Shown: one piece after another, positions 2,315-22,940 of the stretch
How positions within the stretch are numbered: position 1 is the first letter of the stretch
Layout of the letters: every line of letters starts with the position of its first letter
IMG/VR virus record: IMGVR_UViG_3300020200_000167
Location: 1 to 24,742 of that record
Length of the DNA stretch: 24,742 nucleotides
Source: a virus
Strand: one strand, 5' to 3'
The notes under the pieces: model-generated
The model's database searches: none
Seen by the model: the letters and a program-made list of their open reading frames with translations, nothing else
What the model was told of the DNA's origin: nothing
Made by a program: the position numbers and the translations under genes

Positions 2315-4249
2315 TTAGCTAGAAATGTCTACCAATTCACAATTACCATCGGAACTGCAAGCCAATGTAGCATTTATAGAGGTTCCATCTTCTGTCTCAT
2401 AAAAAGATAAGTCTTCCCAACGAATCGAGGAGGGCATCCTGGCAAGAAGCTCTAGGTACTCTGTCTCTGTTATTTCTTGATATGGAGCTTGTCTATAAGA
2501 GTGATTTGAGTGGGGAAGAAATGAAATTCCTGAAACCTCATCAAAATATCTATATACCCACGCACCAACTTCCATCCATTCCTCCTCCTCAACAGATACG
2601 GTAATAGATGGTTTATGCTCACACCATTCCCGCTGATACACAAGCCATGTATTTAAGTGGTCAATAGCGGTAAGGTCATCTCTTACGATGGCGCCCTCTG
2701 GCGCCTTTACTGGAAATGAAAAAACATATGTATCGTTTGGTTTCATAAAATCATCTTCTACTGGAATGCCTACTTCCTTTAAAAATGTCGATAGCGGGTC
2801 TTTCTTATCGCCACGCACCGTTCTAATGTAATATGGCGAATGCCAGGCATGCATTCCTGAAGATACGCCAGTTAATTGAGATACTGTGCCTGAAGGCTTA
2901 ACGCATGTGATAGCAGCAGATTCATTTATTCCAACCTTTTCTGCTTCGCTCTTGTTCACGCTTCTTGCATGATCACGAATCTTAGACAGGAAATCTCCAA
3001 GCTTATCTAGCCCTTCTCTGCCTGACATAAGGCTATGCCCGAACTGCCCAGTTATTGAAACGCCAAGTAGTCGTTCTTCTTCGGTATTATCTCTCCAGAT
3101 TTTACGAAGATACTTAAAATCCGTAAGGGTTGATTGCCATGTTCCAAGTATGGTTGCTAGACGAACCTTGTTTTCTATTTCTCTAGGCGTGTCTTTGTCA
3201 CGAATTACAACCTCAGACAGGTTACAAAATTGATAAGGTCTGAGTATAATCTCGGAGCAGGGATTGGTTCCGTAATGGATTTCAGGGTCTCTGCGTCCCC
3301 ATCTTGCTGCCTGTTTCTGGGCAGCGGCCACATTGTATATGCCTCGTTCTCCTGATTTAGAATCGTATAGATTTTTCCATTCTGCAATAAACTGTTCCAT
3401 TTCTGGCTTACGAGAATATGCCACCGAATTATTTGACAAAGCACGTTGTGTGTTTTTCTCCCACCAATTTCCAGATTTTGCTGCGGCCATTTCAATATCG
3501 TTAATGTTAGAAAGGGAAATCATTGCTGAGCGACGAACGCCTCCCACAACCACAATCTCCCCAATTTTGCACATGATGTCATGCGCTTCAATTGGTTTCA
3601 GCTGACGACCCGCTGCTTGCCTAAATTTTACAATGGTAAAATCAAATAGATTCACCAATGGCTGTGGCCCAGATGACCTTCCGCCCATGGTTTTAAGCCT
3701 TGCGCCAGCAGGACGAAGTTTAGATACATCAATTACTGGAATTTGTCCTGCCCATAGCATGGCAAGCAATTCTCTATAGGACTTTGCCCACCCAGTCTTA
3801 GAATCTTCTACAACAATTGTAGTCGTGGTTTTCTCAAATGTCTCTGGAACCGCAGGAAGCTTGTTGACATATTTGTATTCAACAGAAAATCCTACGCCCG
3901 TTCCACACATTAGAATATACATGGTCTCATCAAATGATCGTGGCGAATCTACTGGAATAAAAGAGCAGTTGTATCCCGAAACATGGTCTCTTTCTAGGGC
4001 GGGACCAGAAGTCATGACAGATCTCATAGAAGGCATTACATTGCGATTGAAAACTGCATCTTTTAATTCTGCAACCAAAGAATCATCTGGCTCGTATTTA
4101 TAGTTATCTTTTAGGTAGCCAAGCATGAAGGTGAAATATCTATCTACTGTTTCTCCCCACGTTTCCCTGCGATTCTCTTCTGGGATCCATCTTGCATATC
4201 TAGACAATGCGATAAAATTTTCGTAGGGGTTATCAATAGCTTTCAGCAT
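2315..4249 (-). CDS. nrdJ: Adenosylcobalamin-dependent (class II) ribonucleotide reductase
   Basis: 644 aa. It reduces ribonucleotides to deoxyribonucleotides for phage DNA synthesis, using adenosylcobalamin to make a thiyl radical, so no separate radical subunit or oxygen is needed. It resembles the monomeric Lactobacillus-type triphosphate reductase. C331 in NPCSE would be the thiyl cysteine with N329 and E333. C95 (YNCSF) and C342 (FCNLS) are the redox pair, and the C331-C342 spacing equals that of C408-C419 in the Lactobacillus enzyme. KPSGTVSQL (451-459) is the phosphate-binding loop. C631 and C637 near the C-terminus form the shuttle pair. All key residues are present. It is about 95 aa shorter than the Lactobacillus enzyme. 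No intein or intron interrupts it. SD AGAAGG precedes ATG. Confidence 0.93.
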   Translation of the reverse strand: MLKAIDNPYENFIALSRYARWIPEENRRETWGETVDRYFTFMLGYLKDNYKYEPDDSLVAELKDAVFNRNVMPSMRSVMTSGPALERDHVSGYNCSFIPVDSPRSFDETMYILMCGTGVGFSVEYKYVNKLPAVPETFEKTTTTIVVEDSKTGWAKSYRELLAMLWAGQIPVIDVSKLRPAGARLKTMGGRSSGPQPLVNLFDFTIVKFRQAAGRQLKPIEAHDIMCKIGEIVVVGGVRRSAMISLSNINDIEMAAAKSGNWWEKNTQRALSNNSVAYSRKPEMEQFIAEWKNLYDSKSGERGIYNVAAAQKQAARWGRRDPEIHYGTNPCSEIILRPYQFCNLSEVVIRDKDTPREIENKVRLATILGTWQSTLTDFKYLRKIWRDNTEEERLLGVSITGQFGHSLMSGREGLDKLGDFLSKIRDHARSVNKSEAEKVGINESAAITCVKPSGTVSQLTGVSSGMHAWHSPYYIRTVRGDKKDPLSTFLKEVGIPVEDDFMKPNDTYVFSFPVKAPEGAIVRDDLTAIDHLNTWLVYQREWCEHKPSITVSVEEEEWMEVGAWVYRYFDEVSGISFLPHSNHSYRQAPYQEITETEYLELLARMPSSIRWEDLSFYETEDGTSINATLACSSDGNCELVDISS

Positions 4250-8070: not shown

Positions 8071-8234
8071 AAATCAAGTTCTTAAAAATGTTAATATGTT
8101 TTTAATTTGTATGATGCACGATTTTAAAATGTCCGTTTTGTGTATTTAGTGCGCCCATATGTGGTGTATATCACAGAAAAAATGTGTGAGGCTAATCACA
8201 ATGTCCGATTTGTGTGGATTTATAAGTTGCAAAA

Positions 8235-8256
8235 TGTCAGAGGGCTAGTGTAAATT
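8235..8256 (+). promoter_or_regulatory. TGTCRG-box promoter 1
   Basis: TGTCAG, 10 nt, TAAATT. The leader has AGAAAGGATA before the ATG at 8285. First of the 16-member family. Confidence 0.7.
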
Positions 8257-8284
8257 GAAAGTATAAGTACAGAAAGGATAGCAA

Positions 8285-8401
8285 ATGTTAGACTATAAAG
8301 AATTGGGCTTCAGTTCTGAGGACGAAATGTGGGAACATATTGAGTCTGAAAGAGAATATGAGTTCTCGGTATGGAACTCTCTCCAGGTTTGGAGAGAATA
8401 A
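8285..8401 (+). CDS. Acidic microprotein
   Basis: 38 aa, Glu/Trp-rich (DEMWEHIESEREYEF). It starts 28 nt after a box promoter with GAAAGGA as SD. Not recognised; a small acidic phage protein of this kind may inhibit a host factor, but nothing shows it. Confidence 0.55.
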   Translation: MLDYKELGFSSEDEMWEHIESEREYEFSVWNSLQVWRE

Positions 8402-8419
8402 CCTAATGACGATTGGCTA

Positions 8420-8465
8420 ATGAGCCTAGCAAATAAGGTCGCAAGACATGAGCCTAGCAAATAAG
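8420..8465 (+). repeat. 18-bp direct repeat, period 28
   Basis: ATGAGCCTAGCAAATAAG occurs at 8420-8437 and again at 8448-8465, in the gap between two microgenes. Each copy reads as a five-codon start-to-stop frame. Confidence 0.6.
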
Positions 8466-8474
8466 TAGCCAAAA

Positions 8475-8496
8475 TGTCAGCCCCATAGTATAAGAT
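8475..8496 (+). promoter_or_regulatory. TGTCRG-box promoter 2
   Basis: TGTCAG, 10 nt, TAAGAT; leader with GAAAGGAAC before the GTG at 8523. Confidence 0.65.
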
Positions 8497-8522
8497 TAAA
8501 CTAAGAAAGAAAGGAACAACAA

Positions 8523-8681
8523 GTGTTAGTATTAGATTACACAGTTGAGAAAGAGGGTAACCTCATTACAGTATCGGATAGGCTCATGATAAATGAGCGC
8601 CAAATAAATGACCTAATGGATAGCCTAGTGGCTAATGGTTTTACAGTAGAGGCCATGTCAGTAGCCCCTGCTATACTCTAA
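8523..8681 (+). CDS. Hypothetical microprotein
   Basis: 52 aa, GTG start with AGAAAGGAA upstream. Mixed alpha/beta pattern. Its 3' end contains promoter 3 (8656-8677). Not recognised. Confidence 0.55.
   Translation: MLVLDYTVEKEGNLITVSDRLMINERQINDLMDSLVANGFTVEAMSVAPAIL
8656..8677 (+). promoter_or_regulatory. TGTCRG-box promoter 3
   Basis: TGTCAG, 10 nt, TATACT, inside the end of the previous gene; leader with AACGAAAGGAAAA. Confidence 0.7.
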
Positions 8682-8709
8682 GAACTAAGAACGAAAGGAA
8701 AATAGATAA

Positions 8710-8826
8710 ATGATAAACTCAGTTCAAATTATAGACTGCTCATCTTGTTATGGTGAGGGAATTATTTTTATTGGCGATGAAAATGATTATTCAATAGAGC
8801 CTTGCGAGTGTGTCAGTAAGTCCTGA
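8710..8826 (+). CDS. DnaJ-type zinc microprotein
   Basis: 38 aa. CSSCYGEG (C10, C13) resembles a DnaJ CxxCxGxG repeat, closed by CEC (C32, C34). The same layout recurs in the 9696 gene, so the two are probably paralogous zinc modules. Promoter 4 begins within its last codons. Confidence 0.6.
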   Translation: MINSVQIIDCSSCYGEGIIFIGDENDYSIEPCECVSKS

Positions 8827-8832
8827 TACACT
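8811..8832 (+). promoter_or_regulatory. TGTCRG-box promoter 4
   Basis: TGTCAG, 10 nt, TACACT; leader with AACGAAAGGAAAA before the GTG at 8860. Confidence 0.65.
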
Positions 8833-8859
8833 AAGACTAAACGAAAGGAAAATAAATAA

Positions 8860-9033
8860 GTGTATGCTATGAGTTGGGAGATAGATAACTCTCTCTATAA
8901 ATATGAAACAATACAAGAACCCTACACAGTAGAGTTTTATGAATATGAATCAAGCGATAAAGATTTATCACTTGATGAATTGCTAGAACAAGAGGAAAAC
9001 GAATTACTAGAATCGGAAAGAGAGGATTTCTAA
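8860..9033 (+). CDS. Acidic microprotein
   Basis: 57 aa from a GTG placed at the same distance from GAAAGGA as in sister genes. The tail is a Glu-rich helix (LDELLEQEENELLESERED). Not recognised. It abuts the next gene with no gap. Confidence 0.5.
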   Translation: MYAMSWEIDNSLYKYETIQEPYTVEFYEYESSDKDLSLDELLEQEENELLESEREDF

Positions 9034-9180
9034 ATGTTTACACTAAGACTAGAATTAAACGAATATGGATTAGAGTTTGATTTTTTTAACAATGGTGTTT
9101 ATCTAAATTGGATAACACTAGGAATAATTGCTATCGCTACTATTGCGATTGTAGTTTACAAAAACAATTCCTACTTCTAA
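9034..9180 (+). CDS. Single-span membrane microprotein
   Basis: 48 aa. Hydrophobic segment around 25-42 (LNWITLGIIAIATIAIVV) with a short polar tail. ATG directly follows the previous stop, so translation is probably coupled. Confidence 0.55.
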   Translation: MFTLRLELNEYGLEFDFFNNGVYLNWITLGIIAIATIAIVVYKNNSYF

Positions 9181-9188
9181 ATTGGCGC

Positions 9189-9249
9189 ACCCGCCGATCG
9201 GCGGGTCGGCTTGACAAAATGGGCGGGGCCCCCAGCTTGCTAGGGGGGC
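9189..9249 (+). terminator. Tandem GC-rich hairpins, terminator-like
   Basis: ACCCGCC-GATC-GGCGGGT (9189-9206) is a perfect 7-bp hairpin. A second one pairs GCCCCC (9228-9233) with GGGGGC (9243-9249 region). No T-run follows. The GGGCGGGGCCC segment is shared with the hairpin at 10194. Confidence 0.45.
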
Positions 9250-9259
9250 GATTTGTCCG

Positions 9260-9284
9260 TTACGTCCGATTTATGAAATCCCTG
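9260..9284 (+). repeat. TTACG-N16-CCTG repeat, copy A
   Basis: TTACG at 9260 and CCTG at 9281, flanked by AAAT before CCTG and ATTTTGTGAGATT after it. It lies between the hairpins and promoter 5. Confidence 0.55.
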
Positions 9285-9352
9285 GATTTTGTGAGATTTA
9301 TCACACGACACGCCGTCTTACTATTTGAGAAAATATAATTTAGATTTGAAAA

Positions 9353-9374
9353 TGTCGGTGGGTTTTGGTAAAAT
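9353..9374 (+). promoter_or_regulatory. TGTCRG-box promoter 5
   Basis: TGTCGG, 10 nt, TAAAAT; leader with AAACGAAAGGAAAAC before ATG 9404. Confidence 0.7.
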
Positions 9375-9403
9375 CATAAATCTAAACGAAAGGAAAACTA
9401 TAA

Positions 9404-9568
9404 ATGACACTTCAAAAAGAAAAATATGAATTTATCGCTAAGGTTGAGCAATTAGCGAAAGATAAACACGGCGAAAATTATCTCGCCGCTCTTTGGGGTT
9501 CTGCCCAATGCTTTTTGACCGAGGAAAATCTCAAGGTCATGGAAAATGTTTTTGGGGGTAATAAATGA
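9404..9568 (+). CDS. Hypothetical microprotein
   Basis: 54 aa, helical (MTLQKEKYEFIAKVEQLAKD). Overlaps the next start as ATGA. Not recognised. Confidence 0.55.
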   Translation: MTLQKEKYEFIAKVEQLAKDKHGENYLAALWGSAQCFLTEENLKVMENVFGGNK

Positions 9569-9699
9569 ACCTCCAAGAATTTAGAGAATTTATTATTGCT
9601 GAGCGTAAAGTTCAGCAAGAAAAAAACCTAACCGCCATAATGTCGGTGGTGGGTGCTACAATTACAGACAACAACGAACGAAAGGAAAACTATAAATGA
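9565..9699 (+). CDS. Microprotein frame running through a promoter
   Basis: 44 aa, start coupled by ATGA to the previous gene and stop coupled by ATGA to the next. The last 19 codons are the TGTCGG box, -10 and leader of promoter 6, so its C-terminus (MSVVGATITDNNERKENYK) is dictated by regulatory sequence. Confidence 0.45.
   Translation: MNLQEFREFIIAERKVQQEKNLTAIMSVVGATITDNNERKENYK
9641..9662 (+). promoter_or_regulatory. TGTCRG-box promoter 6
   Basis: TGTCGG, 10 nt, TACAAT; leader with AACGAACGAAAGGAAAAC before ATG 9696. Confidence 0.7.
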
Positions 9700-9899
9700 G
9701 TAAGATAAAACGAGCAGTTGAAACTATCCTAAACTGCGAACTTTGTGGCGGTAAAGGATACAGTTATTGGGGAAATGGTGAGGACTACGACACCGAGATT
9801 TGTGATTGTAACCCACACGAAATAATCCTTGACGGCGAGGAAATTATTTATTCCGAACTAATTGAGGAAAATCTATTTACAACTAGCGAGGCTAACTAA
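9696..9899 (+). CDS. DnaJ-type zinc small protein
   Basis: 67 aa. CELCGGKGYSYW (C14, C17) matches a DnaJ CxxCxGxG repeat, and CDC (C36, C38) completes the zinc site. Same layout as the 8710 gene. The tail is acidic. Confidence 0.65.
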   Translation: MSKIKRAVETILNCELCGGKGYSYWGNGEDYDTEICDCNPHEIILDGEEIIYSELIEENLFTTSEAN

Positions 9900-10090
9900 T
9901 GATGACTCGCAAAGACTATGTTGCTACCGCAGAAATTTTGCGGTATGTATCAAATAAAACCCACCCCGCAGTTTTTTCTAAAATGGTAAATGATTTTGCG
10001 GAAATGTTTGCGAAAGATAATTCAAGATTTGATGTGAAAAAATTTCACGAAGCGAGCAATTATAATGTTTCCAAATTTAACACGAATTAA
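9899..10090 (+). CDS. Conserved small phage protein (RKDY...F..DN.RF type)
   Basis: 63 aa, start overlapping the previous stop (TAATG). The pattern RKDYVATAEIL, then VNDFAEMFAKDNSRFDVKKFHEA is one I recognise from many phages as a small protein of unknown function. A second ATG at 9902 is equally possible. Confidence 0.65.
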   Translation: MMTRKDYVATAEILRYVSNKTHPAVFSKMVNDFAEMFAKDNSRFDVKKFHEASNYNVSKFNTN

Positions 10091-10184
10091 AAAAGTTTTG
10101 GAGTTGCGCCGATCTAATGCGGCCTCTCCAATTCGTAATCGTAAAAAATATTCCCGCAAAATAAAACACAAAAAAGCTCAATAG
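10065..10184 (+). CDS. Very basic microprotein
   Basis: 39 aa, starting inside the previous gene in another frame. RRSNAASPIRNRKKYSRKIK is strongly basic and resembles short RSN...KKY.RK proteins common in phages. Likely to bind nucleic acid. No good SD, so coupling is assumed. Confidence 0.5.
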   Translation: MFPNLTRIKKVLELRRSNAASPIRNRKKYSRKIKHKKAQ

Positions 10185-10193
10185 AATTGGGCG

Positions 10194-10217
10194 GGGCCCG
10201 CACGCCTGCGGGGGCCC
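10194..10217 (+). terminator. GC-rich hairpin, terminator-like
   Basis: GGGCCCGCA pairs with TGCGGGGGCCC (2-nt bulge) around CGCC. No T-run. Same position relative to the next repeat and promoter as the hairpins at 9189-9249. Confidence 0.45.
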
Positions 10218-10225
10218 TAGCCGTG

Positions 10226-10251
10226 TTACGAGTCAAGCTAGAAATGCCCTG
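10226..10251 (+). repeat. TTACG-N17-CCTG repeat, copy B
   Basis: TTACG at 10226 and CCTG at 10248, followed by AATTTTGTGAGATT as in copy A. Confidence 0.55.
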
Positions 10252-10299
10252 AATTTTGTGAGATTCGTCACAAAAAATTTTTAGGCTTAATTTAACAAA

Positions 10300-10321
10300 T
10301 GTCGGCAGGCTAGTGTATAAT
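10300..10321 (+). promoter_or_regulatory. TGTCRG-box promoter 7
   Basis: TGTCGG, 10 nt, TATAAT; leader with AACGAAAGGAAAAA before ATG 10350. Confidence 0.75.
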
Positions 10322-10349
10322 CAAGCCATAACTATAACGAAAGGAAAAA

Positions 10350-10610
10350 ATGGCTACAAAGTTAGACACAACAAATTGGGTTTCTTATCCATTCTCAGTA
10401 AATGGTATGAAATTCAAAACTCTCCTTGACCCAAAAGGCAGTTTCTATGAAAGAATAGAAATGTTGCCCCAAGACGAGTTCACGAAAGAAAATACACTCA
10501 TGTTCTTAGAATTCATTGGTGACCCCAACCTTCTTTCCGCCGAGGAATTACAAGAACAATTAGATGTGCTAAATCTGGGCGCTTCGCAGGCTATCTTAGC
10601 CCTAGCCTAA
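10350..10610 (+). CDS. Hypothetical protein
   Basis: 86 aa. Beta-rich first half (WVSYPFSVNGMKFKTLL), acidic helical second half ending QAILALA. Not recognised. Confidence 0.65.
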   Translation: MATKLDTTNWVSYPFSVNGMKFKTLLDPKGSFYERIEMLPQDEFTKENTLMFLEFIGDPNLLSAEELQEQLDVLNLGASQAILALA

Positions 10611-10632
10611 TGTCGGTGGGCTAGGATATAAT
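10611..10632 (+). promoter_or_regulatory. TGTCRG-box promoter 8
   Basis: TGTCGG, 10 nt, TATAAT, beginning right after the previous stop. The leader contains AACGAAAGGAAACAA, the exact 15-nt complement of the small RNA at 16764-16778. Confidence 0.8.
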
Positions 10633-10665
10633 CTAGCCCTTAACCTAACGAAAGGAAACAAATAA

Positions 10666-11172
10666 ATGGGATTAGACATGTATCTTGAGGCAAGAAAGCA
10701 TATTGAGAAAATTGATTGGAAAAAGTTAGATAAAGATAACTATGGCGCAGAAACTTGCTATTCCGAGGCTACTTTCCCACAATGGAATAATGTAGTTGAG
10801 TCTGCTGGACTTACTACTATTGTCGATAGAGAAAGTATCTATGGCGTAAATGTTAGCGTTACTGTTGCCTATTGGCGCAAGGTCAATTCAGTTCATAATT
10901 GGTTTGTGAACAATATCCAAGGTGGTAATGATAACTGCGGTGAATACTATGTACCTCAAGATAAATTGAGAGAATTAGTTAGACTATGTACCTTAGCGGT
11001 CACTAATAAAGACCCTAACTTGATACCGCCCCAAGAGGGATTTTTCTTTGGCGGAACTGACATAGATGAGTGGTATTGGCGTGGTCTAATGAATACTATT
11101 GAGCAAATCCAGCAACTTATAGATAGACCCGATTTTGAGGAATTGTCCTTCTATTACACTTCATCTTGGTAA
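10666..11172 (+). CDS. Conserved phage protein (GLDMYL...YWRK family)
   Basis: 168 aa. MGLDMYL at the start, AYWRKVNSVHNWFVNNIQGG in the middle and NCGEYYV after it are the hallmarks of a phage protein family widespread among unrelated phages. The function of the family is unknown as far as I know. Promoter 9 overlaps its stop. Confidence 0.75.
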   Translation: MGLDMYLEARKHIEKIDWKKLDKDNYGAETCYSEATFPQWNNVVESAGLTTIVDRESIYGVNVSVTVAYWRKVNSVHNWFVNNIQGGNDNCGEYYVPQDKLRELVRLCTLAVTNKDPNLIPPQEGFFFGGTDIDEWYWRGLMNTIEQIQQLIDRPDFEELSFYYTSSW

Positions 11173-11194
11173 TGTCGGCTGGCTCTGATATAAT
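11173..11194 (+). promoter_or_regulatory. TGTCRG-box promoter 9 (leaderless gene)
   Basis: TGTCGG, 10 nt, TATAAT (11189-11194), overlapping the end of the previous gene. The ATG at 11202 starts 8 nt after the hexamer, so this member of the family lacks the GAAAGGA leader. Confidence 0.75.
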
Positions 11195-11201
11195 CTCCGC
11201 C

Positions 11202-11918
11202 ATGTTAAAGCGCTCTAAAGATAGAAAGGTTGCTAATGCGGTATCCCCAAATGGAAAGACCCCCACGATTGCGAACACTTTTGGCCTGCCTGCTGGCAAG
11301 CAGTATTCTTGTCCTGGCGCTACTAATGTGTGCGAAAGTGTCTGCTACGCTGGCAAGTTAGAAAAACTTTATCCTGCGGTAAGTGGGGTATTGTTTCATA
11401 ATTGGGAACTGCTACGCAACGCAGATGAGCCCACTATGGTAGATTTATTAGAGAATATGATTAATGACTTTAGAAAAGATTGCGATAAACGCAATGTCGA
11501 AAAGTTATTCCGTATTCATTGGGACGGTGATTTCTTTAATGATACCTACGCTAGGGCATGGCAATATGTGATTATACAAAACGCAGATATTCAATTTTGG
11601 GTTTATACCCGTGTTGCTTCCGCCGCAATTATTCTTAAAGGAATATCTAATCTATCTTTATACTACTCAACTGATGATGACAACAAGGAGACCGCTAGAG
11701 AATTAAGGGCCTCTCATGGTGTCCGTCTTGCATATCTTGCTAAAACTTTTGCGGTGGCGGAAAGTGTTATGAAAGAATTAATTGGCAAAGTAGGCGCTAG
11801 GTGTCCTGAAAACGCAAAGCAGATTCCGTTAATCTCTGCTAATGGCTCTGCCTGCGTATCGTGCGGATTGTGTGTCTATAACAAGGCAGACATAAGATTT
11901 TCTGCGAGTAAAAAATAA
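11202..11918 (+). CDS. GP88-like cysteine-rich phage protein
   Basis: 238 aa from the chosen start. Features: GLPAGKQYSCPGATNVCESVCYAGK (C37, C44, C48) near the N-terminus, FRIHWDGDFFNDTYARAW centrally, and a C-terminal cluster C201, C218, C221, C224 (ACVSCGLC). The layout fits the actinophage gene-product-88 type; eight cysteines (these seven plus C94) could hold an Fe-S cluster or zinc, which is inference. An in-frame TTG at 11166 lies upstream of the -10 hexamer and would not be transcribed from promoter 9, so the ATG at 11202 is chosen; it is predicted leaderless. Function of the family is unknown. Confidence 0.75.
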   Translation: MLKRSKDRKVANAVSPNGKTPTIANTFGLPAGKQYSCPGATNVCESVCYAGKLEKLYPAVSGVLFHNWELLRNADEPTMVDLLENMINDFRKDCDKRNVEKLFRIHWDGDFFNDTYARAWQYVIIQNADIQFWVYTRVASAAIILKGISNLSLYYSTDDDNKETARELRASHGVRLAYLAKTFAVAESVMKELIGKVGARCPENAKQIPLISANGSACVSCGLCVYNKADIRFSASKK

Positions 11919-11964
11919 TGGCCACGAGCTGCGGCAATTAATTTGGGAGGACACAATTGATCAG

Positions 11965-11980
11965 GCCCGCAGATGAGCGG
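11965..11980 (+). terminator. Short GC hairpin
   Basis: CCCGC-AGATGA-GCGGG, downstream of the GP88-like gene and just before the DnaA-box dyad. No T-run. Confidence 0.35.
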
Positions 11981-11982
11981 GG

Positions 11983-12014
11983 TTATCCACAGCCTTACGG
12001 CTAATTGTGGAAAA
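11983..12014. repeat. DnaA-box dyad 1
   Basis: TTATCCACA (11983-11991, perfect DnaA consensus) faces TGTGGAAAA (12006-12014, one mismatch when reversed). Between them lies CTTACGGC. The 24-bp core matches that of the dyad at 13917 at most positions. Confidence 0.55.
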
Positions 12015-12020
12015 GCCCTA
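11995..12020 (+). repeat. TTACG-N17-CCTA repeat, copy H
   Basis: TTACG at 11995 and CCTA at 12017, overlapping the right half of DnaA-box dyad 1. Confidence 0.45.
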
Positions 12021-12031
12021 AATATTGCCGA

Positions 12032-12053
12032 TGTCGGCGGGCTGGTGTATAAT
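12032..12053 (+). promoter_or_regulatory. TGTCRG-box promoter 10
   Basis: TGTCGG, 10 nt, TATAAT. The leader contains AACGAAAGGAAACAA, a perfect 15-nt match to the small-RNA antisense. Confidence 0.8.
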
Positions 12054-12082
12054 CGGGGCATTACAACAACGAAAGGAAACAA

Positions 12083-12355
12083 ATGTTATCAACCGCAACT
12101 GCCCTTATCAAGGCAACCGAGGACGCAATTTTTGATGATGAGGCAATGTCCTTCGCCCAAGAGTTTATGCGCCGTGCTAAAGACTTAGACGAAGTGGATT
12201 TCGCTAAATCTATTTATATTTATTCTACTCTAGTTGCTAGTCTAGCAGTAGATAAGGCTATGAAAGTATTACTAACTAAAGAACAAGTAGTGGAACTATG
12301 CTCTTGTATTGACGAGTTGGAAAAAATACAAGATGAGGTTATCAATGGGAAGTAA
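12083..12355 (+). CDS. Hypothetical helical protein
   Basis: 90 aa, all-helical pattern with acidic and hydrophobic heptads. Not recognised. Overlaps the next gene by 11 bp. Confidence 0.65.
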   Translation: MLSTATALIKATEDAIFDDEAMSFAQEFMRRAKDLDEVDFAKSIYIYSTLVASLAVDKAMKVLLTKEQVVELCSCIDELEKIQDEVINGK

Positions 12356-12620
12356 TTTTGCTTATGACTTAGCAGAAGATGAGTTAGGCTTAGGCTTAGA
12401 ACAGTCTATTGAAATTCATCTACGGGCTAATCATTACCCGCCCGTTCCTTCATCTATGGTCAAGCCCTGCATTGAGGCTATTGACGCTTTCTATGATGAG
12501 GAAACAGATCGAGAGATACCTATGCCCGAAGGCATAACCTATAAAGGATTAAACACAGCCCCTGCTTGGGCTATCGTAGAACAACACCACCTAGACGAGT
12601 GGCTACCTGATTACTTATAG
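12345..12620 (+). CDS. Hypothetical acidic protein
   Basis: 91 aa from the ATG at 12345, which has GAGG 6 nt upstream; a TTG at 12309 in the same frame is less likely. Acidic, with WAIVEQHHLDEWLPDYL at the C-terminus. Not recognised. Confidence 0.6.
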   Translation: MGSNFAYDLAEDELGLGLEQSIEIHLRANHYPPVPSSMVKPCIEAIDAFYDEETDREIPMPEGITYKGLNTAPAWAIVEQHHLDEWLPDYL

Positions 12621-12625
12621 ACAGA

Positions 12626-12647
12626 TGTCGGTGGGCTATGATAGAAT
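12626..12647 (+). promoter_or_regulatory. TGTCRG-box promoter 11
   Basis: TGTCGG, 10 nt, TAGAAT; leader with AACAGAAAGGAAGCAA. Confidence 0.75.
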
Positions 12648-12674
12648 ATCCCTCCAATAACAGAAAGGAAGCAA

Positions 12675-12851
12675 ATGACCATAAATGGTTATACTTACAG
12701 GGTTGGTGACTTGTTCACAACTCTGAAGTCAAAGAAAACAGGCATAATCAAAGAGATTATTCCTAACGCATCTGGCTCGGTGCGTGTATTGCTAGAACTA
12801 CCAACTAAGGAAACTCGTTGGACTAGCGTATCCGCTAAGTCGCTAGAATAA
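12675..12851 (+). CDS. Small beta-barrel-like protein
   Basis: 58 aa. Strand-rich with YRVGDLFTTLKSKKTGIIKEI and VRVLLEL, a layout like small SH3/KOW-type barrels. This is a pattern guess; no family recognised. Confidence 0.55.
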   Translation: MTINGYTYRVGDLFTTLKSKKTGIIKEIIPNASGSVRVLLELPTKETRWTSVSAKSLE

Positions 12852-12863
12852 TCTAGAACATAT

Positions 12864-12889
12864 TAGCCCCCCTACTTGTCGGGGGGCTA
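12864..12889 (+). terminator. Perfect 9-bp hairpin overlapping the TGTCGG box
   Basis: TAGCCCCCC (12864-12872) pairs with GGGGGGCTA (12881-12889) around TACTTGTC. The box of promoter 12 spans the loop and right arm, so one sequence may end one transcript and start the next. Confidence 0.6.
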
Positions 12890-12898
12890 TGCTACAAT
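12877..12898 (+). promoter_or_regulatory. TGTCRG-box promoter 12
   Basis: TGTCGG, 10 nt, TACAAT; leader AAACGAAAGGAAATAA (14 of 15 positions pair with the small RNA, the other as G-U). Confidence 0.75.
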
Positions 12899-12928
12899 TC
12901 TTGCTGACAAATAAACGAAAGGAAATAA

Positions 12929-13351
12929 ATGGCTAGAAATGGCAAATCTATAAATGTCAAGATTGCTACCTCCAAAGTAATCAAGGCACTAGAAACAAAG
13001 TTAGTCCAACTCCGAAAGGATAAGGCTAATCAAAAAGCAAATGAGGAGAAGCACGCTAAGGCTATAAAGGCTTGGAACAAAGAGGTAGGCAAATTAGCAC
13101 TTGCTAAAATCTCTAAAGCAGAGAACTTAACTGCCAGAGTTTGCTACAACGGCATGATAAGTGTTGATTTCAGTTTACCTAAAGAGTCTTTTGAACTTCC
13201 TGAAGAGCCTGAAAAAGACTTCGATAGTCTAAGTGAGTGGCAGTATAAGGAAATGGTAGATGAAATTGAGAACGCTATCCGTATCCTAAAGATGACAGAT
13301 GAGGAAGTCGTAAGCACTTCAACTTACAACTCTATCGCTCGTTATCTCTAA
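12929..13351 (+). CDS. Hypothetical coiled-coil protein
   Basis: 140 aa. Residues about 10-60 are a Lys-rich helix likely to form a coiled coil, followed by a short beta region (VCYNGMISVDFSLP) and an acidic helix. Not recognised. Confidence 0.65.
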   Translation: MARNGKSINVKIATSKVIKALETKLVQLRKDKANQKANEEKHAKAIKAWNKEVGKLALAKISKAENLTARVCYNGMISVDFSLPKESFELPEEPEKDFDSLSEWQYKEMVDEIENAIRILKMTDEEVVSTSTYNSIARYL

Positions 13352-13356
13352 TAAAT

Positions 13357-13384
13357 TGGGGGCTAGACAAAAATCTAGCCCCCA
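13357..13384 (+). terminator. Perfect 11-bp hairpin overlapping a promoter
   Basis: TGGGGGCTAGA (13357-13367) pairs with TCTAGCCCCCA (13374-13384) around CAAAAA. A TATAAT lies 3 nt after the stem, so the hairpin occupies the place of the -35 and box. It may terminate the upstream message and shape the next promoter. Confidence 0.6.
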
Positions 13385-13387
13385 TGT

Positions 13388-13393
13388 TATAAT
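13388..13393 (+). promoter_or_regulatory. -10 element without TGTCRG box
   Basis: TATAAT, 27 nt before the ATG at 13421. No TGTCRG at the standard distance and the SD is GAGGA, not GAAAGGA, so this unit seems outside the common regulon. Confidence 0.5.
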
Positions 13394-13420
13394 TATTACC
13401 CCTACTAACCGAGGAACAAA

Positions 13421-13624
13421 ATGTATAAAATCTCAATAATATTTGACGGCAAGGCCCCTCAAGTATTTCAATATTCTGACGCCCTTGACGCTTTCTCTAC
13501 TTATTTATTTAAGTGTATAGATTTAGGCGAGGCCAAAGATACAGCAACCTATAACCTCTCGCTACCAAATGGCAAGATGTATAGTAAAACATTTAACACA
13601 AATGGATTCGTGTCGAGCAAATGA
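13421..13624 (+). CDS. Hypothetical protein
   Basis: 67 aa, beta-rich start (MYKISIIFDGKAPQVFQYSD). SD GAGGA. Overlaps the next gene as ATGA. Not recognised. Confidence 0.6.
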   Translation: MYKISIIFDGKAPQVFQYSDALDAFSTYLFKCIDLGEAKDTATYNLSLPNGKMYSKTFNTNGFVSSK

Positions 13625-13845
13625 CAGCTCGCTTCCGTGTTGAAATATATGACGAAGTAAAGGATAATGACCTTACCCTTTACTTTGACCAAGGCGTAGA
13701 CAAGGATTATCTAACCGAGTTAGCGTTTTCTAATATGTATAAGTTTCAAGGGAATATTCGTGCTTACGTGTATGATGACCTAAACCAGAAAAAAACAACC
13801 TGCTTGGTGTTGAATCGTGAGTTCTTACCGCCAAAACCTGGATAA
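13621..13845 (+). CDS. Hypothetical protein
   Basis: 74 aa, alternating beta strands and an amphipathic helix. Coupled to the previous gene (ATGA). Not recognised. Confidence 0.6.
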   Translation: MTARFRVEIYDEVKDNDLTLYFDQGVDKDYLTELAFSNMYKFQGNIRAYVYDDLNQKKTTCLVLNREFLPPKPG

Positions 13846-13848
13846 TAA

Positions 13849-13896
13849 TCTTGGGGCGGGGGCTCCCTGCTGACCCCCTGCCCCATCTTCCCAAGA
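13849..13896 (+). terminator. Long GC-rich hairpin
   Basis: TCTTGGG (13849-13855) pairs with CCCAAGA (13890-13896), with inner pairing of a GGGGG run to CCCCC. It follows the gene pair directly and precedes DnaA-box dyad 2. Confidence 0.5.
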
Positions 13897-13916
13897 TCGC
13901 CCGCAGACATGGGGGG

Positions 13917-13948
13917 TTTTCCACAGGTTTACGGCAGCTTGTGGATAA
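13917..13948. repeat. DnaA-box dyad 2
   Basis: TTTTCCACA (13917-13925, one mismatch) faces TGTGGATAA (13940-13948, perfect when reversed), with TTTACGGC between. Same length and spacing as dyad 1. Confidence 0.55.
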
Positions 13949-13982
13949 CCTCGCAAATTTGATATCTGTCTATCTTGTCAAA

Positions 13983-14004
13983 TGTCGGTGACCCGTGTTA
14001 TACT
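13983..14004 (+). promoter_or_regulatory. TGTCRG-box promoter 14
   Basis: TGTCGG, 10 nt, TATACT; leader with ATCGAAAGGATAAA before ATG 14037. Confidence 0.75.
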
Positions 14005-14036
14005 TAGGCCAAATCAACAATCGAAAGGATAAATTC

Positions 14037-15041
14037 ATGGCGCATAACCTTGAAACTAATGGCGATGAAGTCGCTTTTGCCATTCGTGGCACACCTGCTT
14101 GGCACAATCTTGCCAATCGTATATTCTCACAAGATGAGGATGTCAATACTCAAACAATGCTAGATGAGGCTAAACTCTCAAACTGGAATGTTCGTTTATC
14201 TCCAATAATTGAATATATCAATCCTGAATGGAATGATGTATCAGATTCACACTTAGTGCTACGCACTAATCCGTTTAATTCTGAAACCGATGTTCTTGCT
14301 GTTGTCGGTAAGAGATATAAAGTAGTTCAGAATGAGGATTTATTTGCGTTCGCTGACGCTATCCATGACGCTAACCCTGAGTGCCGTTGGGAATCTGCTG
14401 GCTCTCTCAAAAAGGGTAAAGTCGTATTTGGTAGCGTAGATATTCCACGCACTATGGTATTAGACCCACAAGGGGCTAACGATAAGACAAAATTGTATCT
14501 TATCGTATGGACAAGTCATGACGGCTCTGTTGCTGTTCAAGCATCGATAACACCTGTTCGTGTTGTATGCCAAAATACCTTGAATCTTGCCATGAGTAAT
14601 GCGAAGCAATCATTCAAGATTCGTCATACTCAATCTGTCGAGGGCAGAATTCAAGTTGCTAGGGAAACTCTAGGTCTTGCTCTTGGATACTTTGATGAAT
14701 TCGAGAAAGAGGTTAAAGAGTTATTCGAGCAATCAATAACTAATGTTGAATTCTCTAAATTGATTCGCACAATCTACCCTAAGCCAGATAAAGAATCTAG
14801 GGGTGCGATAAAGAAATGGGAAAATAAAGTTGTCCTAATTGATGACCTTTATTTCAATTCACCTACTAACGCAAATATCAATGGCACAAAATGGGGCGCT
14901 TTCAATGCTCTAATCGAGCGCCTTGATTATTTCCGTTCTGGTCGTGGCAATTCCGAAACACTAATGGCTGGTGCTTCTGGATTTGACCCTGTTCTAACTG
15001 CTGAGAAAAATAGACTTCTCAAGTTGGTAAAAGCATTTTAA
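14037..15041 (+). CDS. DUF932 phage/plasmid-like protein
   Basis: 334 aa. The start AHNLETNGDEVAFAIRGTPAWH, then VVGKRYKVVQNEDLFAFADAI, ASITPVRVVCQNTLNLA and FKIRHTQSVEGRI follow the DUF932 (phage/plasmid-like TIGR03299) family, common on phages and plasmids. Its function is not known for certain; links with DNA replication or recombination have been proposed from context. An in-frame start at 13995 lies before the -10 and would not be transcribed, so the ATG 8 nt after GAAAGGAT is used. A strong terminator follows. Confidence 0.88.
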   Translation: MAHNLETNGDEVAFAIRGTPAWHNLANRIFSQDEDVNTQTMLDEAKLSNWNVRLSPIIEYINPEWNDVSDSHLVLRTNPFNSETDVLAVVGKRYKVVQNEDLFAFADAIHDANPECRWESAGSLKKGKVVFGSVDIPRTMVLDPQGANDKTKLYLIVWTSHDGSVAVQASITPVRVVCQNTLNLAMSNAKQSFKIRHTQSVEGRIQVARETLGLALGYFDEFEKEVKELFEQSITNVEFSKLIRTIYPKPDKESRGAIKKWENKVVLIDDLYFNSPTNANINGTKWGAFNALIERLDYFRSGRGNSETLMAGASGFDPVLTAEKNRLLKLVKAF

Positions 15042-15054
15042 TAAATGCTAAACT

Positions 15055-15082
15055 AACGGGGGAATAAAATCCCCCGTTTTTT
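15055..15082 (+). terminator. Intrinsic terminator after the DUF932 gene
   Basis: AACGGGGG pairs with CCCCCGTT (8 bp) around AATAAAAT, followed by a T-run. The clearest terminator of the window. Confidence 0.85.
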
Positions 15083-15086
15083 ATTT

Positions 15087-15162
15087 GGTGCGTTAGATTA
15101 GCTCGGCTTAAATCGCTACCTTGTCACGGTAGAGATCGTGGGTTCAAATCCCATACGCACCG
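15087..15162 (+). tRNA. tRNA-Asp (GUC)
   Basis: Acceptor GGTGCGT/ACGCACC, anticodon stem CTACC/GGTAG around TTGTCAC (anticodon GTC), T-arm with GGGTTCAAATCCC, discriminator G as usual for tRNA-Asp. It starts 4 nt after the T-run of the terminator and is followed by GCAC/GTGC hairpin and a T-run. No CCA is encoded. Confidence 0.9.
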
Positions 15163-15165
15163 CCC

Positions 15166-15188
15166 GCACATCTGAGTGCAGGATTTTT
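15166..15188 (+). terminator. Terminator-like hairpin after tRNA-Asp
   Basis: GCAC-ATCTGA-GTGC followed by AGGATTTTTG. Short stem, so moderate. Confidence 0.4.
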
Positions 15189-15191
15189 GTG

Positions 15192-15216
15192 TTACGAATC
15201 ACAGAAAAAACCCCTG
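15192..15216 (+). repeat. TTACG-N16-CCTG repeat, copy C
   Basis: TTACG at 15192 and CCTG at 15213, between the tRNA and promoter 15. Confidence 0.45.
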
Positions 15217-15230
15217 AACCCCTTGCGGGA

Positions 15231-15252
15231 TGTCAGTCGACTAGTGTACAAT
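15231..15252 (+). promoter_or_regulatory. TGTCRG-box promoter 15 with operator-like overlap
   Basis: TGTCAG, 10 nt, TACAAT. The spacer contains TCGACTAG, so CAGTCGACTAG (15234-15244) overlaps both box and spacer and matches the palindrome seen at 6999. Leader ACAGAAAGGAAAGAA. Confidence 0.7.
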
Positions 15253-15277
15253 ACGGGTCACAACAGAAAGGAAAGAA

Positions 15278-15682
15278 ATGGAAACAGAAATAACCATGCC
15301 CGAAGCCCCCCTTCTTAAGGATAATGACCTTGAGGCAAAGTTGGAGCGTATCAAAAATCTAGAAGACTGGTTGTCCCGTTCACATGTCACAATCAGCAAG
15401 ATTATTGATAACTTAACTATGGAGGGTTGGTATAGTCTAGATGTAGATAAGAGCGATGTGCTCAGAGACCTCTGTGAGATATTAGACCATACTCCACAGC
15501 AACAAATGTCTTGGACAACAAATATTGTAGTAGAAGGAACTACTTTGGTTAATCTAGACGAAGTAGAAGACTTTGATGTTAGATATCACCTACAAGATAG
15601 TTTGACAGTAGATTCCAGCGATTGGAATTCTAAGGTTGATTCATGGGATGTTAATGATGTAATATCTCAGGAATGGGATTAA
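15278..15682 (+). CDS. Conserved hypothetical acidic protein
   Basis: 134 aa. Helical first half (LEAKLERIKNLEDWLSRSH), then VLRDLCEILDHTP, then a strand-rich acidic C-terminal part (VVEGTTLVNLDEVEDFDV). I have seen similar LCEIL...EVEDFD layouts in phage proteins of unknown function. Overlaps the next start (TAATG). Confidence 0.65.
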   Translation: METEITMPEAPLLKDNDLEAKLERIKNLEDWLSRSHVTISKIIDNLTMEGWYSLDVDKSDVLRDLCEILDHTPQQQMSWTTNIVVEGTTLVNLDEVEDFDVRYHLQDSLTVDSSDWNSKVDSWDVNDVISQEWD

Positions 15683-15924
15683 TGTATTACAAGTTGCATA
15701 CACCTCTCGGTAAGGCCTGCCAGCAGGCCTACTGGGACGCAGAATGGTCTGGCTTGGACCCATATTATCTAGGAAATAATGTATTTGAAATTGGGACGGG
15801 ACATGTAGAAAAAGTTACCTCCTTGATTTCTAAATATAAATTAGATATACTAGTGGAGTCAGAATATACGCCAACTGGCTATAAGACTGATAGGAGACAG
15901 TATGGACTACAGAGACGGTTTTGA
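15682..15924 (+). CDS. Hypothetical protein
   Basis: 80 aa from the ATG overlapping the previous stop; an ATG at 15673 is possible. Aromatic-rich (YWDAEWSGLDPYYLG). Not recognised. Confidence 0.6.
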   Translation: MYYKLHTPLGKACQQAYWDAEWSGLDPYYLGNNVFEIGTGHVEKVTSLISKYKLDILVESEYTPTGYKTDRRQYGLQRRF

Positions 15925-16066
15925 AGACGGTGTAAAATTTACCCGTGAGGTTATTATTGCCAACATTCGCAAGTGGGCAGAAACTCAATCCGATTATGAC
16001 GCACAAACGTTAGATTGGGTAGCAGACCGTATCGAGTATGGGACACTAGATGACAGCCTTGGATAA
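15902..16066 (+). CDS. Hypothetical microprotein
   Basis: 54 aa, overlaps both neighbours. AGGAG lies 5 nt before the ATG. Acidic helical (MDYRDGFEDGVKFTREVII). Resembles short phage proteins with a DGFxDGxxFxRE start; function unknown. Confidence 0.6.
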   Translation: MDYRDGFEDGVKFTREVIIANIRKWAETQSDYDAQTLDWVADRIEYGTLDDSLG

Positions 16067-16268
16067 AATATATGTTGCCGTAGATTATATGTGGTGTGAT
16101 CGTTGTCACGTAGCACGAGCTTCACATCTAATTAAACTATTAGAAGGCGAACTGTATTTTTGCGGACATCATTACACAGACCATAAAGAGGCCCTTGACA
16201 AAAAGGCCTATGAGGTAATAGAATTAAATAAGACGGAAGAAGTCCCTCAACTAGAAAAGGTGGTTTAA
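16050..16268 (+). CDS. DUF7455-like zinc protein
   Basis: 72 aa. WCDRCHVARASHLIKLLEGELYFCGHH (C16, C19, C38 with H40/H41) matches the small actinobacterial and actinophage zinc-binding family known as DUF7455. Function unknown; the fold is a zinc ribbon. Overlaps the previous gene. Confidence 0.75.
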   Translation: MTALDKIYVAVDYMWCDRCHVARASHLIKLLEGELYFCGHHYTDHKEALDKKAYEVIELNKTEEVPQLEKVV

Positions 16269-16270
16269 AC

Positions 16271-16672
16271 ATGGGAGACAGAGCAAACTTTGGCTTTACA
16301 CAGCCAAATGGGCACACAATTGTGCTGTATGGACACTGGGCAGGCGGCGCAATGCTAAATCAATTAGCGAATGCGGTATTGGCGGCGGAGCCTAGGTGGG
16401 AAGACCCTGCATATGCAACACGTATCGCAATTAGTCAATTGGTTGGGGACCAGTGGACCAGCGAAATAGGTTGGGGGCTACACGTAGACGAGATATCAGA
16501 CAATGAGCATAGGATTCCAGTAATCAATTGGGATAAGAAGAGATTCAGTCTTCATGAAGAAGAGTCATTCGACATAGACAATAATGTACGTGGGATGAGG
16601 GACGAACCAATCTTCACTATGGGCCTGGCGGCATTCTGTAGTAAATATGCAGATGACCTAGTCTCTGTGTGA
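16271..16672 (+). CDS. Conserved phage protein (MGDRANFGF...YGHWAG family)
   Basis: 133 aa. The start MGDRANFGFTQPNGHTIVLY, followed by GHWAGG and later RIAISQL and DNEHRIP, is a pattern recurring in actinophage-type genomes. Function unknown. The -10 of the small-RNA promoter begins right after its stop codon. Confidence 0.7.
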   Translation: MGDRANFGFTQPNGHTIVLYGHWAGGAMLNQLANAVLAAEPRWEDPAYATRIAISQLVGDQWTSEIGWGLHVDEISDNEHRIPVINWDKKRFSLHEEESFDIDNNVRGMRDEPIFTMGLAAFCSKYADDLVSV

Positions 16673-16678
16673 TATAAT
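16670..16678 (+). promoter_or_regulatory. Extended -10 promoter of the small RNA
   Basis: TGATATAAT (TATAAT 16673-16678) directly behind the stop of the previous gene. No TGTCRG box at the family distance and no clear -35, so it is controlled differently from its predicted targets. Confidence 0.6.
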
Positions 16679-16682
16679 AGTG

Positions 16683-16837
16683 GCAGGTCCTAGCGGACCT
16701 GTCTACTAGAAGTATGGTGCGGCTACTAGGCTTCCGCCAAGTCGCTAAGTAATGCAGCATTGCTTGTTTCCTTTCGTTTCTGCTAGCAGCCTTACTTATC
16801 CATAAGATCTCTCATGTATTAGCTGGGAGATTTTTTT
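16683..16837 (+). ncRNA. Candidate antisense small RNA against the GAAAGGA leaders
   Basis: About 155 nt. It begins just after an extended -10. Elements in order: a 9-bp hairpin GGCAGGTCC/GGACCTGTC with loop TAGC (16682-16703); a weaker GCGG/CCGC hairpin; an 8-bp hairpin AAGTAATG/CATTGCTT (16747-16765); a pyrimidine-rich segment TTGTTTCCTTTCGTT (16764-16778); and a terminator. The segment is a perfect 15-nt antisense to AACGAAAGGAAACAA in the leaders of the genes at 10666 and 12083 and pairs nearly as well with many others. The expected action is to cover the ribosome site of these genes. The same segment read backwards resembles a leader plus ATG, but no promoter lies behind it on that strand. 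Expression is not shown by sequence alone. Confidence 0.65.
16807..16837 (+). terminator. Intrinsic terminator of the small RNA
   Basis: ATCTCTC pairs with GGGAGAT (7 bp, one G-U) around an 11-nt loop, followed by seven T. Supports transcription in the plus direction. Confidence 0.75.
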
Positions 16838-16876
16838 ATTTGGCCCTCAGAAAAACTTGGGGGTAGGAAATTCTGT

Positions 16877-16901
16877 TTACGGATATCAAATATATTTCCT
16901 G
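16877..16901 (+). repeat. TTACG-N16-CCTG repeat, copy D
   Basis: TTACG at 16877 and CCTG at 16898, between the small-RNA terminator and promoter 16. The rest of 16838-16954 shows no gene. Confidence 0.45.
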
Positions 16902-16954
16902 GGAATTCGGACAATTTGGTCAAATGGGGCAGCTACCTGCTTCATATAGACAAA

Positions 16955-16976
16955 TGTCGGGGGTAGGGTATATAAT
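16955..16976 (+). promoter_or_regulatory. TGTCRG-box promoter 16
   Basis: TGTCGG, 10 nt, TATAAT; leader ATATCGAAAGGAACAAAA before ATG 17003. Confidence 0.75.
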
Positions 16977-17002
16977 AGGGGCATATATCGAAAGGAACAA
17001 AA

Positions 17003-22514: not shown

Positions 22515-22940
22515 TTACTCTAAATTCAATTGCGTCTCAAACAGGGTATCTGTCTGATTTAACTTATCTCCTTGTTCAAGGAGGTTGAATCCTTTGCTTC
22601 TTTCTAGGGCGACATACCTATAATCAAATAGCCCTAGGTCATCCTCGAGCTTCTTGAATATCTGCTCTGTAGGCAATAGCCCGCATGTGTATAGATCAAA
22701 TTGTATCTCTGCAGGAGCAGGCTCATCCCATACATGTAGGGCTATATGTGAGGTCTCTATCATGACTACGCATGTCAGACCTCTATTGCCCTCTTTTGTT
22801 ACATATGAGGAATATGGACCTTGTATCGTCTTCATGTCGATGGAATCGACTAATGACTGCATCCATTCTACCGCCGCCGTTTCACTTTTTAACGCACTAT
22901 TTGTGTATCCATTTACGAGTAATTGATTATGTAATGGCAT
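22515..22940 (-). CDS. speD: S-adenosylmethionine decarboxylase-like protein
   Basis: 141 aa, close to the bacterial proenzyme length. The enzyme removes CO2 from AdoMet to supply aminopropyl groups for spermidine. ETSHIALHVWDEP matches the self-cleavage region: S64 would become the pyruvoyl group, H69 corresponds to His68 and C86 (YTCG) to Cys83 of the Thermotoga enzyme. Two residues are inserted between S64 and C86, and the usual ESH is TSH. Spermidine made late in infection could neutralise packaged DNA. speD genes are known in aquatic phages. Confidence 0.72.
   Translation of the reverse strand: MPLHNQLLVNGYTNSALKSETAAVEWMQSLVDSIDMKTIQGPYSSYVTKEGNRGLTCVVMIETSHIALHVWDEPAPAEIQFDLYTCGLLPTEQIFKKLEDDLGLFDYRYVALERSKGFNLLEQGDKLNQTDTLFETQLNLE

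Follow-up and report, generated by a model that had tools for sequence, protein, structure and literature searches.

A pseudoknotted phage RNA family with a predicted open loop that matches, by complementarity, the ribosome-binding leaders in a phage gene block

Results

A standalone small-RNA gene upstream of a DUF1281-like gene

The sequence analysed here, referred to as the window, comprises 24,742 bases and is a virus record of IMG/VR; all coordinates without a prefix refer to it. On its plus strand, between ORF 16271-16672 and the gene at 17003 that encodes a DUF1281-like protein, the window carries the elements of a small transcription unit:

16670..16678, + strand: extended -10 promoter TGATATAAT, read from the sequence and present as TGnTATAAT in 85 of 88 homologous loci
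16685..16837, + strand: predicted small RNA of about 153 nt, from the promoter, hairpins and terminator, with the start inferred from the -10 box
16683..16703, + strand: 5' hairpin CAGGTCC/GGACCTG, from sequence and folding
16807..16837, + strand: intrinsic terminator made of a hairpin (stem 16807-16813/16825-16831) and T7 (16831-16837)

An earlier note on this DNA had placed an extended -10 box at a stop codon, followed by a 5' hairpin, a second hairpin and a hairpin with a T7 terminator. All of these are indeed present, and the TGA within the promoter box is itself the stop codon of ORF 16271-16672. The note had also held that this promoter, unlike those of the genes presumed to be targeted, lacks a TGTCRG box. 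This applies to the whole family: among the 88 distinct complete loci counted in IMG/VR viral contigs, 85 carry TGnTATAAT and none has a TGTCRG promoter. Since a terminator-like hairpin is also found in 84 of these 88 loci, the RNA gene is a standalone unit, with a promoter class other than that of its presumed targets, and thus has the separate transcription unit, with promoter and terminator, expected of a multi-target anti-Shine-Dalgarno small RNA. The RNA, taken as 161 nt, folds more strongly than shuffled sequences (z -3.1). At the position of the 5' hairpin, many homologs have a hairpin of variable sequence, as judged by eye on distinct loci.

In the relatives, the RNA lies about 200–300 bp upstream of the DUF1281-like gene, and this position, together with the terminator at its end, would also suit a cis-acting leader or attenuator of gene 17003, comparable to a riboswitch. 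Such a role is extremely unlikely, as gene 17003 has its own TGTCRG promoter (~16956-16976) between the terminator and its start, the loop described below matches leaders up to 8 kb away, and the leader match follows the RNA even where the neighbour gene groups elsewhere (loci L064/L065).

An uncatalogued RNA family in viral contigs

The DUF1281-like neighbour protein, used as a query, yielded 80 viral loci. The motif TCCTTTC was found about 200 bp upstream of the DUF1281-like gene in 10 of these 80, in a common context ending with CTAGCAG. Further loci were gathered by a pattern scan, and the aligned cores (alignment A1, part of whose centre is bound to be invariant because of the scan pattern) were used to build the model R1. 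R1 matches 40 of 81 sources, i.e., the window and the 80 loci; 39 of them, including the window, have E values below 1e-7, and in all 39 the RNA occupies the same place beside the DUF1281-like gene. The matches include a distant group, with E values of 1e-8 to 1e-10, that was not selected by pattern. R1 also matches 60 of 65 additional loci from a second pattern scan.

The 40th match, a weak homolog of 27 bits at L049:11844-11928, has no anti-leader tract. It carries the same kind of extended -10 promoter, has no clear terminator and stands directly before a small ORF; the leaders of this phage are mostly AGAAAG, an association with a tract-less RNA that is only suggestive. A compact form of the RNA, in which the side arm after P2 is much shortened and the tract reads TTTTCCTTTCGTTGAGG, was observed in L156, L158, L161 and L166.

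No Rfam 15 family reaches its gathering score, the best being trpB (E 1.1, 19.8 bits versus 59 required), and a known RNA family is thereby ruled out. In cellular genomes, none of 73 short-pattern hits matches R1; as this check covers pattern hits only, prophages of other sequence are not excluded. Named phages gave no DNA match of note to the window and no match to the DUF1281-like neighbour protein. The Streptomyces phages Jay2Jay and Mandalore have no R1 match, an empty result that is weak alone, although R1 does find the RNA elsewhere. The structured RNA family is real, new and uncatalogued, and its occurrence goes hand in hand with the sequence of the presumed targets, as detailed below.

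The RNA core is an H-type pseudoknot with a pyrimidine loop predicted to be open

The conserved core of the RNA is made up of an outer stem, a side arm and a pseudoknot:

16711..16718, + strand: outer stem P1, 5' strand, covarying helix
16789..16796, + strand: outer stem P1, 3' strand, covarying helix
16719..16724, + strand: P2 5' strand GCGGCT, supported by covariation
16740..16745, + strand: P2 3' strand AGTCGC, supported by covariation
16747..16765, + strand: P3 hairpin AAGTAA/TTGCTT, stem 1 of the pseudoknot, 98% of cells paired with little covariation
16754..16758, + strand: P4 pseudoknot 5' strand GCAGC, supported by covariation
16782..16787, + strand: P4 pseudoknot 3' strand GCTAGC, supported by covariation
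16766..16781, + strand: anti-leader tract GTTTCCTTTCGTTTCT, loop 3 of the pseudoknot, core TTTCGTT kept, predicted open

In alignment A1, 95.4% of the cells are paired and the covariation score is 0.216, versus 0.085 for shuffled and 0.02–0.05 for slid alignments. Covariation supports P1, P2 and the H-type pseudoknot helix P4. P2 displays eight pair combinations, and both of its variable positions are paired in 62 of 62 distinct cores. The last P4 pair is C-G, U-A or G-C in 14, 5 and 4 sequences, respectively, and another P4 position changes from A-U to G-C in the distant group; the last P4 pair is missing from four rows with GCAGG/ACTAGC among the 62 distinct cores. This pseudoknot, formed by GCAGC (16754-16758) with GCTAGC (16782-16787), had been overlooked in the earlier reading. 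The elements follow in the order typical of the H type, with the P3 stem, a 1-nt loop 1, P4 and a 16-nt loop 3, so that two helices in the right order, a short loop 1, a long loop 3 and covariation are all present.

Loop 3 of the pseudoknot is the anti-leader tract. The pyrimidine tract TTGTTTCCTTTCGTT was found at 16764-16778, as had been described, and its bases 16764-16765 belong to the 3' strand of P3, which leaves 16766-16781 as the free loop. Predicted without P4, the tract has an unpaired probability of 0.73, versus 0.42 for the whole RNA. Of 62 distinct RNAs, 61 retain its core TTTCGTT (UUUCGUU in the RNA) and one has TTTCGAT, while the surrounding helices vary freely. A tract drifting against fixed leaders, which the earlier note had named as grounds for refutation, was thus looked for and is not the pattern seen. 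The sole altered core, at L209:7666-7756, reads TTTCGATGG for TTTCGTTGG; the leaders there remain AACGAAAG.

The loop is complementary to the leaders of a set of phage genes

A search of the window with AACGAAAGGAAACAA, allowing three mismatches at most, gave 15 matches, versus 1.0 expected from 100 shuffles (largest value 4). Besides the tract itself, they comprise 14 sites, and 11 of these are plus-strand leaders. The leaders that the earlier note had singled out, and that of the neighbour gene, are located as follows:

10647..10661, + strand: leader of gene 10666, exact complement of the tract
12068..12082, + strand: leader of gene 12083, exact complement of the tract
10336..10350, + strand: leader of gene 10350, 1 mismatch
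12914..12928, + strand: leader of gene 12929, 1 mismatch
8690..8704, + strand: leader near 8710, 2 mismatches
8840..8854, + strand: leader of gene 8860, 2 mismatches
9385..9399, + strand: leader of gene 9404, 3 mismatches, AACGAAAGGAAA kept
9677..9691, + strand: leader of gene 9696, 3 mismatches, AACGAAAGGAAA kept
16987..17001, + strand: leader of the neighbour gene 17003 (DUF1281-like), 3 mismatches

The exact tract complement was thus recovered in front of genes 10666 and 12083, as two plus-strand occurrences. The six leaders said to match nearly do match, with the qualification that their mismatches range from 1 to 3. Two further genes of the block, 12675 and 15278, have AGAAAGG in place of CGAAAGG. 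A conserved unpaired motif complementary to the Shine-Dalgarno regions of several genes is therefore present.

The presumed targets form one gene block

In three contigs of 107–117 kb, CGAAAG leaders are almost confined to a single block of about 10 kb surrounding the RNA, which contains 12 of 13, 10 of 11 and 10 of 11 of the CGAAAG sites, nearly all with a TGTCRG promoter. The RNA-less contig G007 has three scattered CGAAAG sites, none with a TGTCRG promoter. The block promoters consist of TGTCRG, about 10 bases and TATAAT (window 8230-17000; L008, L011, L044, L107), and the TGTCRG promoter motif is common to phages with and without the RNA. Because this spacing falls short of what an ordinary -35 box needs, the promoters may depend on a phage activator or on an unusual sigma factor.

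Most products of the block are small proteins without a known function; DUF932 and GP88 proteins are encoded as well. The DUF932 gene is followed by a tRNA-Asp gene (window 15086-15165), which precedes the next TGTCRG gene, and similar tRNA-like sequences occur in the corresponding stretch of relatives, e.g., L038 and L052. On the minus strand, the window carries genes for ribonucleotide reductase (2315-4249), about 65% identical to those of Streptomyces phages, and S-adenosylmethionine decarboxylase (22515-22940). The nearest relatives of the ribonucleotide reductase and DUF932 proteins are from Streptomyces phages of Stanwilliamsviridae, whose genomes have the DUF932 gene at their left end. 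Protein kinship and the position of the DUF932 gene suggest an actinobacterial host and an early block, without being proof.

The leader type goes together with the RNA

The leaders of RNA-bearing phages are mostly AACGAAAG, whereas those of RNA-less relatives with the same TGTCRG promoters are mostly AGAAAG. Depending on the RNA-bearing subgroup, a C precedes GAAAG in 47–71% of leaders, versus 9% in the RNA-less relatives, where A accounts for 67%. The promoter, TGTCRG-N10-TAnnnT, occurs in the RNA-bearing and the RNA-less sets and was held constant in the comparison: among GAAAG leaders behind this promoter, CGAAAG represents 125/173, 42/52, 30/36 and 10/10 with the RNA, and 6/64 without it. 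When loci recruited by the neighbour gene alone were considered, 95 of 131 unique promoter leaders carry the C in RNA-bearing phages versus 11 of 86 in RNA-less ones; a significance that treats related phages as independent would be overstated. Taken per phage, the C fraction is 0.60–1.00 in 33 loci with the RNA and has a median of 0 in 15 loci without it. Roughly one leader in four still reads AGAAAG in the RNA-bearing phages.

On the neighbour-gene tree, presence or absence of the RNA has to change at least four times, partly owing to near-identical or truncated rows; the upstream sequence of L017 is too short to judge the RNA. L030 and L031 (with L032 and L020) fall within an RNA-bearing clade, and the RNA is absent from them, their leaders being mostly AGAAAG even behind TGTCRG promoters. 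Conversely, L064 and L065 fall within an RNA-less clade and have both the RNA and AACGAAAG leaders. Recombination of the marker gene may be the cause of these placements; the RNA and the leader type still go together. One exception was found, L069/L070, where four of five TGTCRG-promoter leaders have the C and the RNA was not found in the partial contigs; it could lie outside them, be too diverged or have been lost recently.

An explanation by two clades alone is weakened by the tree and by L030–L032 and L064/L065. The RNA could also be a structured element with some other role, such as protein binding or packaging, in which case its loop would resemble leaders only incidentally and the leader types would be mere clade markers. 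The small number of independent changes, four at least, and the breach of the rule by L069/L070 leave some room for this, which is nonetheless scarcely credible given that the RNA and the leader type switch together at two nested places of the tree, that the tract core is fixed while the helices vary, and that the window holds 15 times the matches expected. The interpretation given in the earlier note is supported in relatives at one leader position: the leader C that pairs with the tract, and not with 16S rRNA, tracks the RNA, also across changes on the tree.

The leader C is complementary to the loop and not to the 16S rRNA tail of freshwater actinobacteria

In 10 genomes of one freshwater actinobacterial family, reached via a chance hit and not shown to be the host, the 16S rRNA tail is CCTCCTTTCT. 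The leader C pairs with the G of the tract, whereas the 16S tail has a U at this position, and the leader that best fits such a tail has an A before GAAAG. Median loop–leader binding ranges from -10.3 to -18.2 kcal/mol for the leaders of RNA-bearing phages versus -6.8 to -11.4 for those of RNA-less ones, while the 16S tail slightly favours the RNA-less leaders (-10.3 versus -8.8 to -9.8).

The idea that each loop binds the leaders of its own group best is not generally true by binding energies. As the loops are not consistently best on their own subgroup, we do not claim fine co-variation of the flanks, and our claim is confined to the conserved core AACGAAAG, to which the main group adds GAA. 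The loops of the distant groups have lost the CC that pairs with GG, and the pairing is thus reduced to about 8 bp.

The main tract shares UCCUUUC with the 16S tail CCUCCUUUCU, so that the RNA might be thought to act as a decoy of this tail, covering host Shine-Dalgarno sequences and shutting off host translation. We regard this as very unlikely: the tract lacks CCUCC, which pairs with strong host sites; the distant members have lost the CC too, yet kept CGUU; and the tract G is unpaired at sites fitted to 16S rRNA but paired in the leaders of RNA-bearing phages.

Discussion

Small RNAs directed against Shine-Dalgarno sequences are known from bacteria, LhrC and RsaE among them. With others of this kind, α-r14/NfeR1 and AbcR1/2, the phage RNA shares an unpaired pyrimidine motif directed against several initiation regions. 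In NfeR1, of the α-r14 family, this conserved motif pairs with the initiation regions of several mRNAs and blocks ribosomes (PMC10746234). NfeR1 is cellular and has three hairpins, each with CCUCCUCCC, whereas the present RNA is phage-encoded, is apparently matched to a custom leader of phage genes and exposes a single pseudoknot loop with UUCCUUUCGUU. Since CCUCCUCCC is absent from it, the RNA does not meet the three-hairpin definition of the α-r14/NfeR1 family.

Phages also encode antisense RNAs that act on phage mRNAs, i.e., c4 of P1/P7, sar of P22, and OOP and aQ of lambda; c4 and sar block the initiation of ant translation, the complementary stretch of c4 being probably in a loop (PMC12197685). 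These RNAs have essentially one target each. The RNA described here does not fit that one-gene pattern, as it matches about ten unlinked leaders in trans over roughly 10 kb, although this is complementarity only. VpdS, PreS and DicF are trans-acting base-pairing small RNAs of phages or prophages (PMC12197685). Their targets are mainly host RNAs (both kinds for VpdS), in contrast to the phage leaders matched here, and VpdS and PreS bind Hfq, to which nothing in the present data points. Overall, most of the phage RNAs reviewed have a single phage gene as their target or else are directed mainly at RNAs of the host (PMC12197685). An analogy of role, and of role only, is offered by a protein of 122 residues, T4 RegA, which vies with ribosomes for the initiation regions of about 30 mRNAs (PMC3014915); it recognizes A+U-rich sites, whereas the present RNA would act by base pairing. 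The kind of mechanism is thus known, and its phage-encoded, pseudoknotted and block-wide form appears to be new, as far as the open-access literature without preprints allows, so that priority is not firm.

The RNA family, its structure, the anatomy of its gene, the complementarity of its loop and the leader association are established by computation. From these we propose, as the probable reading, a trans-acting anti-Shine-Dalgarno RNA that represses a phage gene block; its expression, pairing in the cell, repression and timing are inferred. The host-type promoter of the locus would drive a phage-encoded regulatory RNA of about 153 nt acting in trans, whose pseudoknotted core would keep the 16-nt pyrimidine loop open. 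This loop would find its partner, AACGAAAG(GAA), in the 5' leaders of the genes with TGTCRG promoters, of which each genome has about ten, gathered in a single block of roughly 10 kb that surrounds the RNA gene. As the duplex covers the Shine-Dalgarno sequence GAAAGG, loading of the 30S subunit should be blocked, and accumulation of the RNA would lower the translation of the whole block. Because the loop is tied into the pseudoknot, it may have to open before a long duplex can form.

That the effect is repressive is an inference, drawn from where the duplex lies and from how known anti-Shine-Dalgarno RNAs act (PMC10746234). Complementarity and leader association are silent on the sign of the effect, and the keeping of the C by the phages fits any benefit; the RNA could therefore pair with the leaders and help the mRNAs, by protecting them from RNase or by holding them until ribosomes displace it, so that the block would be stabilized or activated. 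We consider this unlikely, given that a duplex lying over GAAAGG and ending near the start codon is the arrangement of known repressing RNAs (PMC10746234).

Returning to repression, the C before GAAAG pairs with the loop G and not with 16S rRNA, and would thus mark the phage leaders as targets. Opinion could be equally divided on a further step, in which the RNA is a block-wide translational switch and the leaders were recoded from A to C before GAAAG, at the cost of a pair with the ribosome, to bear an address that the phage's RNA reads and that is absent from host mRNAs.

As the loop and the leaders are associated through evolution, the RNA is probably a switch for a viral gene block. Global repression of a phage's own translation is known from a protein, T4 RegA, and this would be its RNA counterpart. 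The RNA and its presumed targets go together in a widespread freshwater phage group related to actinobacteriophages, and a single base makes their leaders deviate from the best fit to the host ribosome, so that they offer a clean, testable case of co-evolution between a small RNA and its regulon. The loop itself gives a simple means to recognize such a regulon in metagenomic phages.
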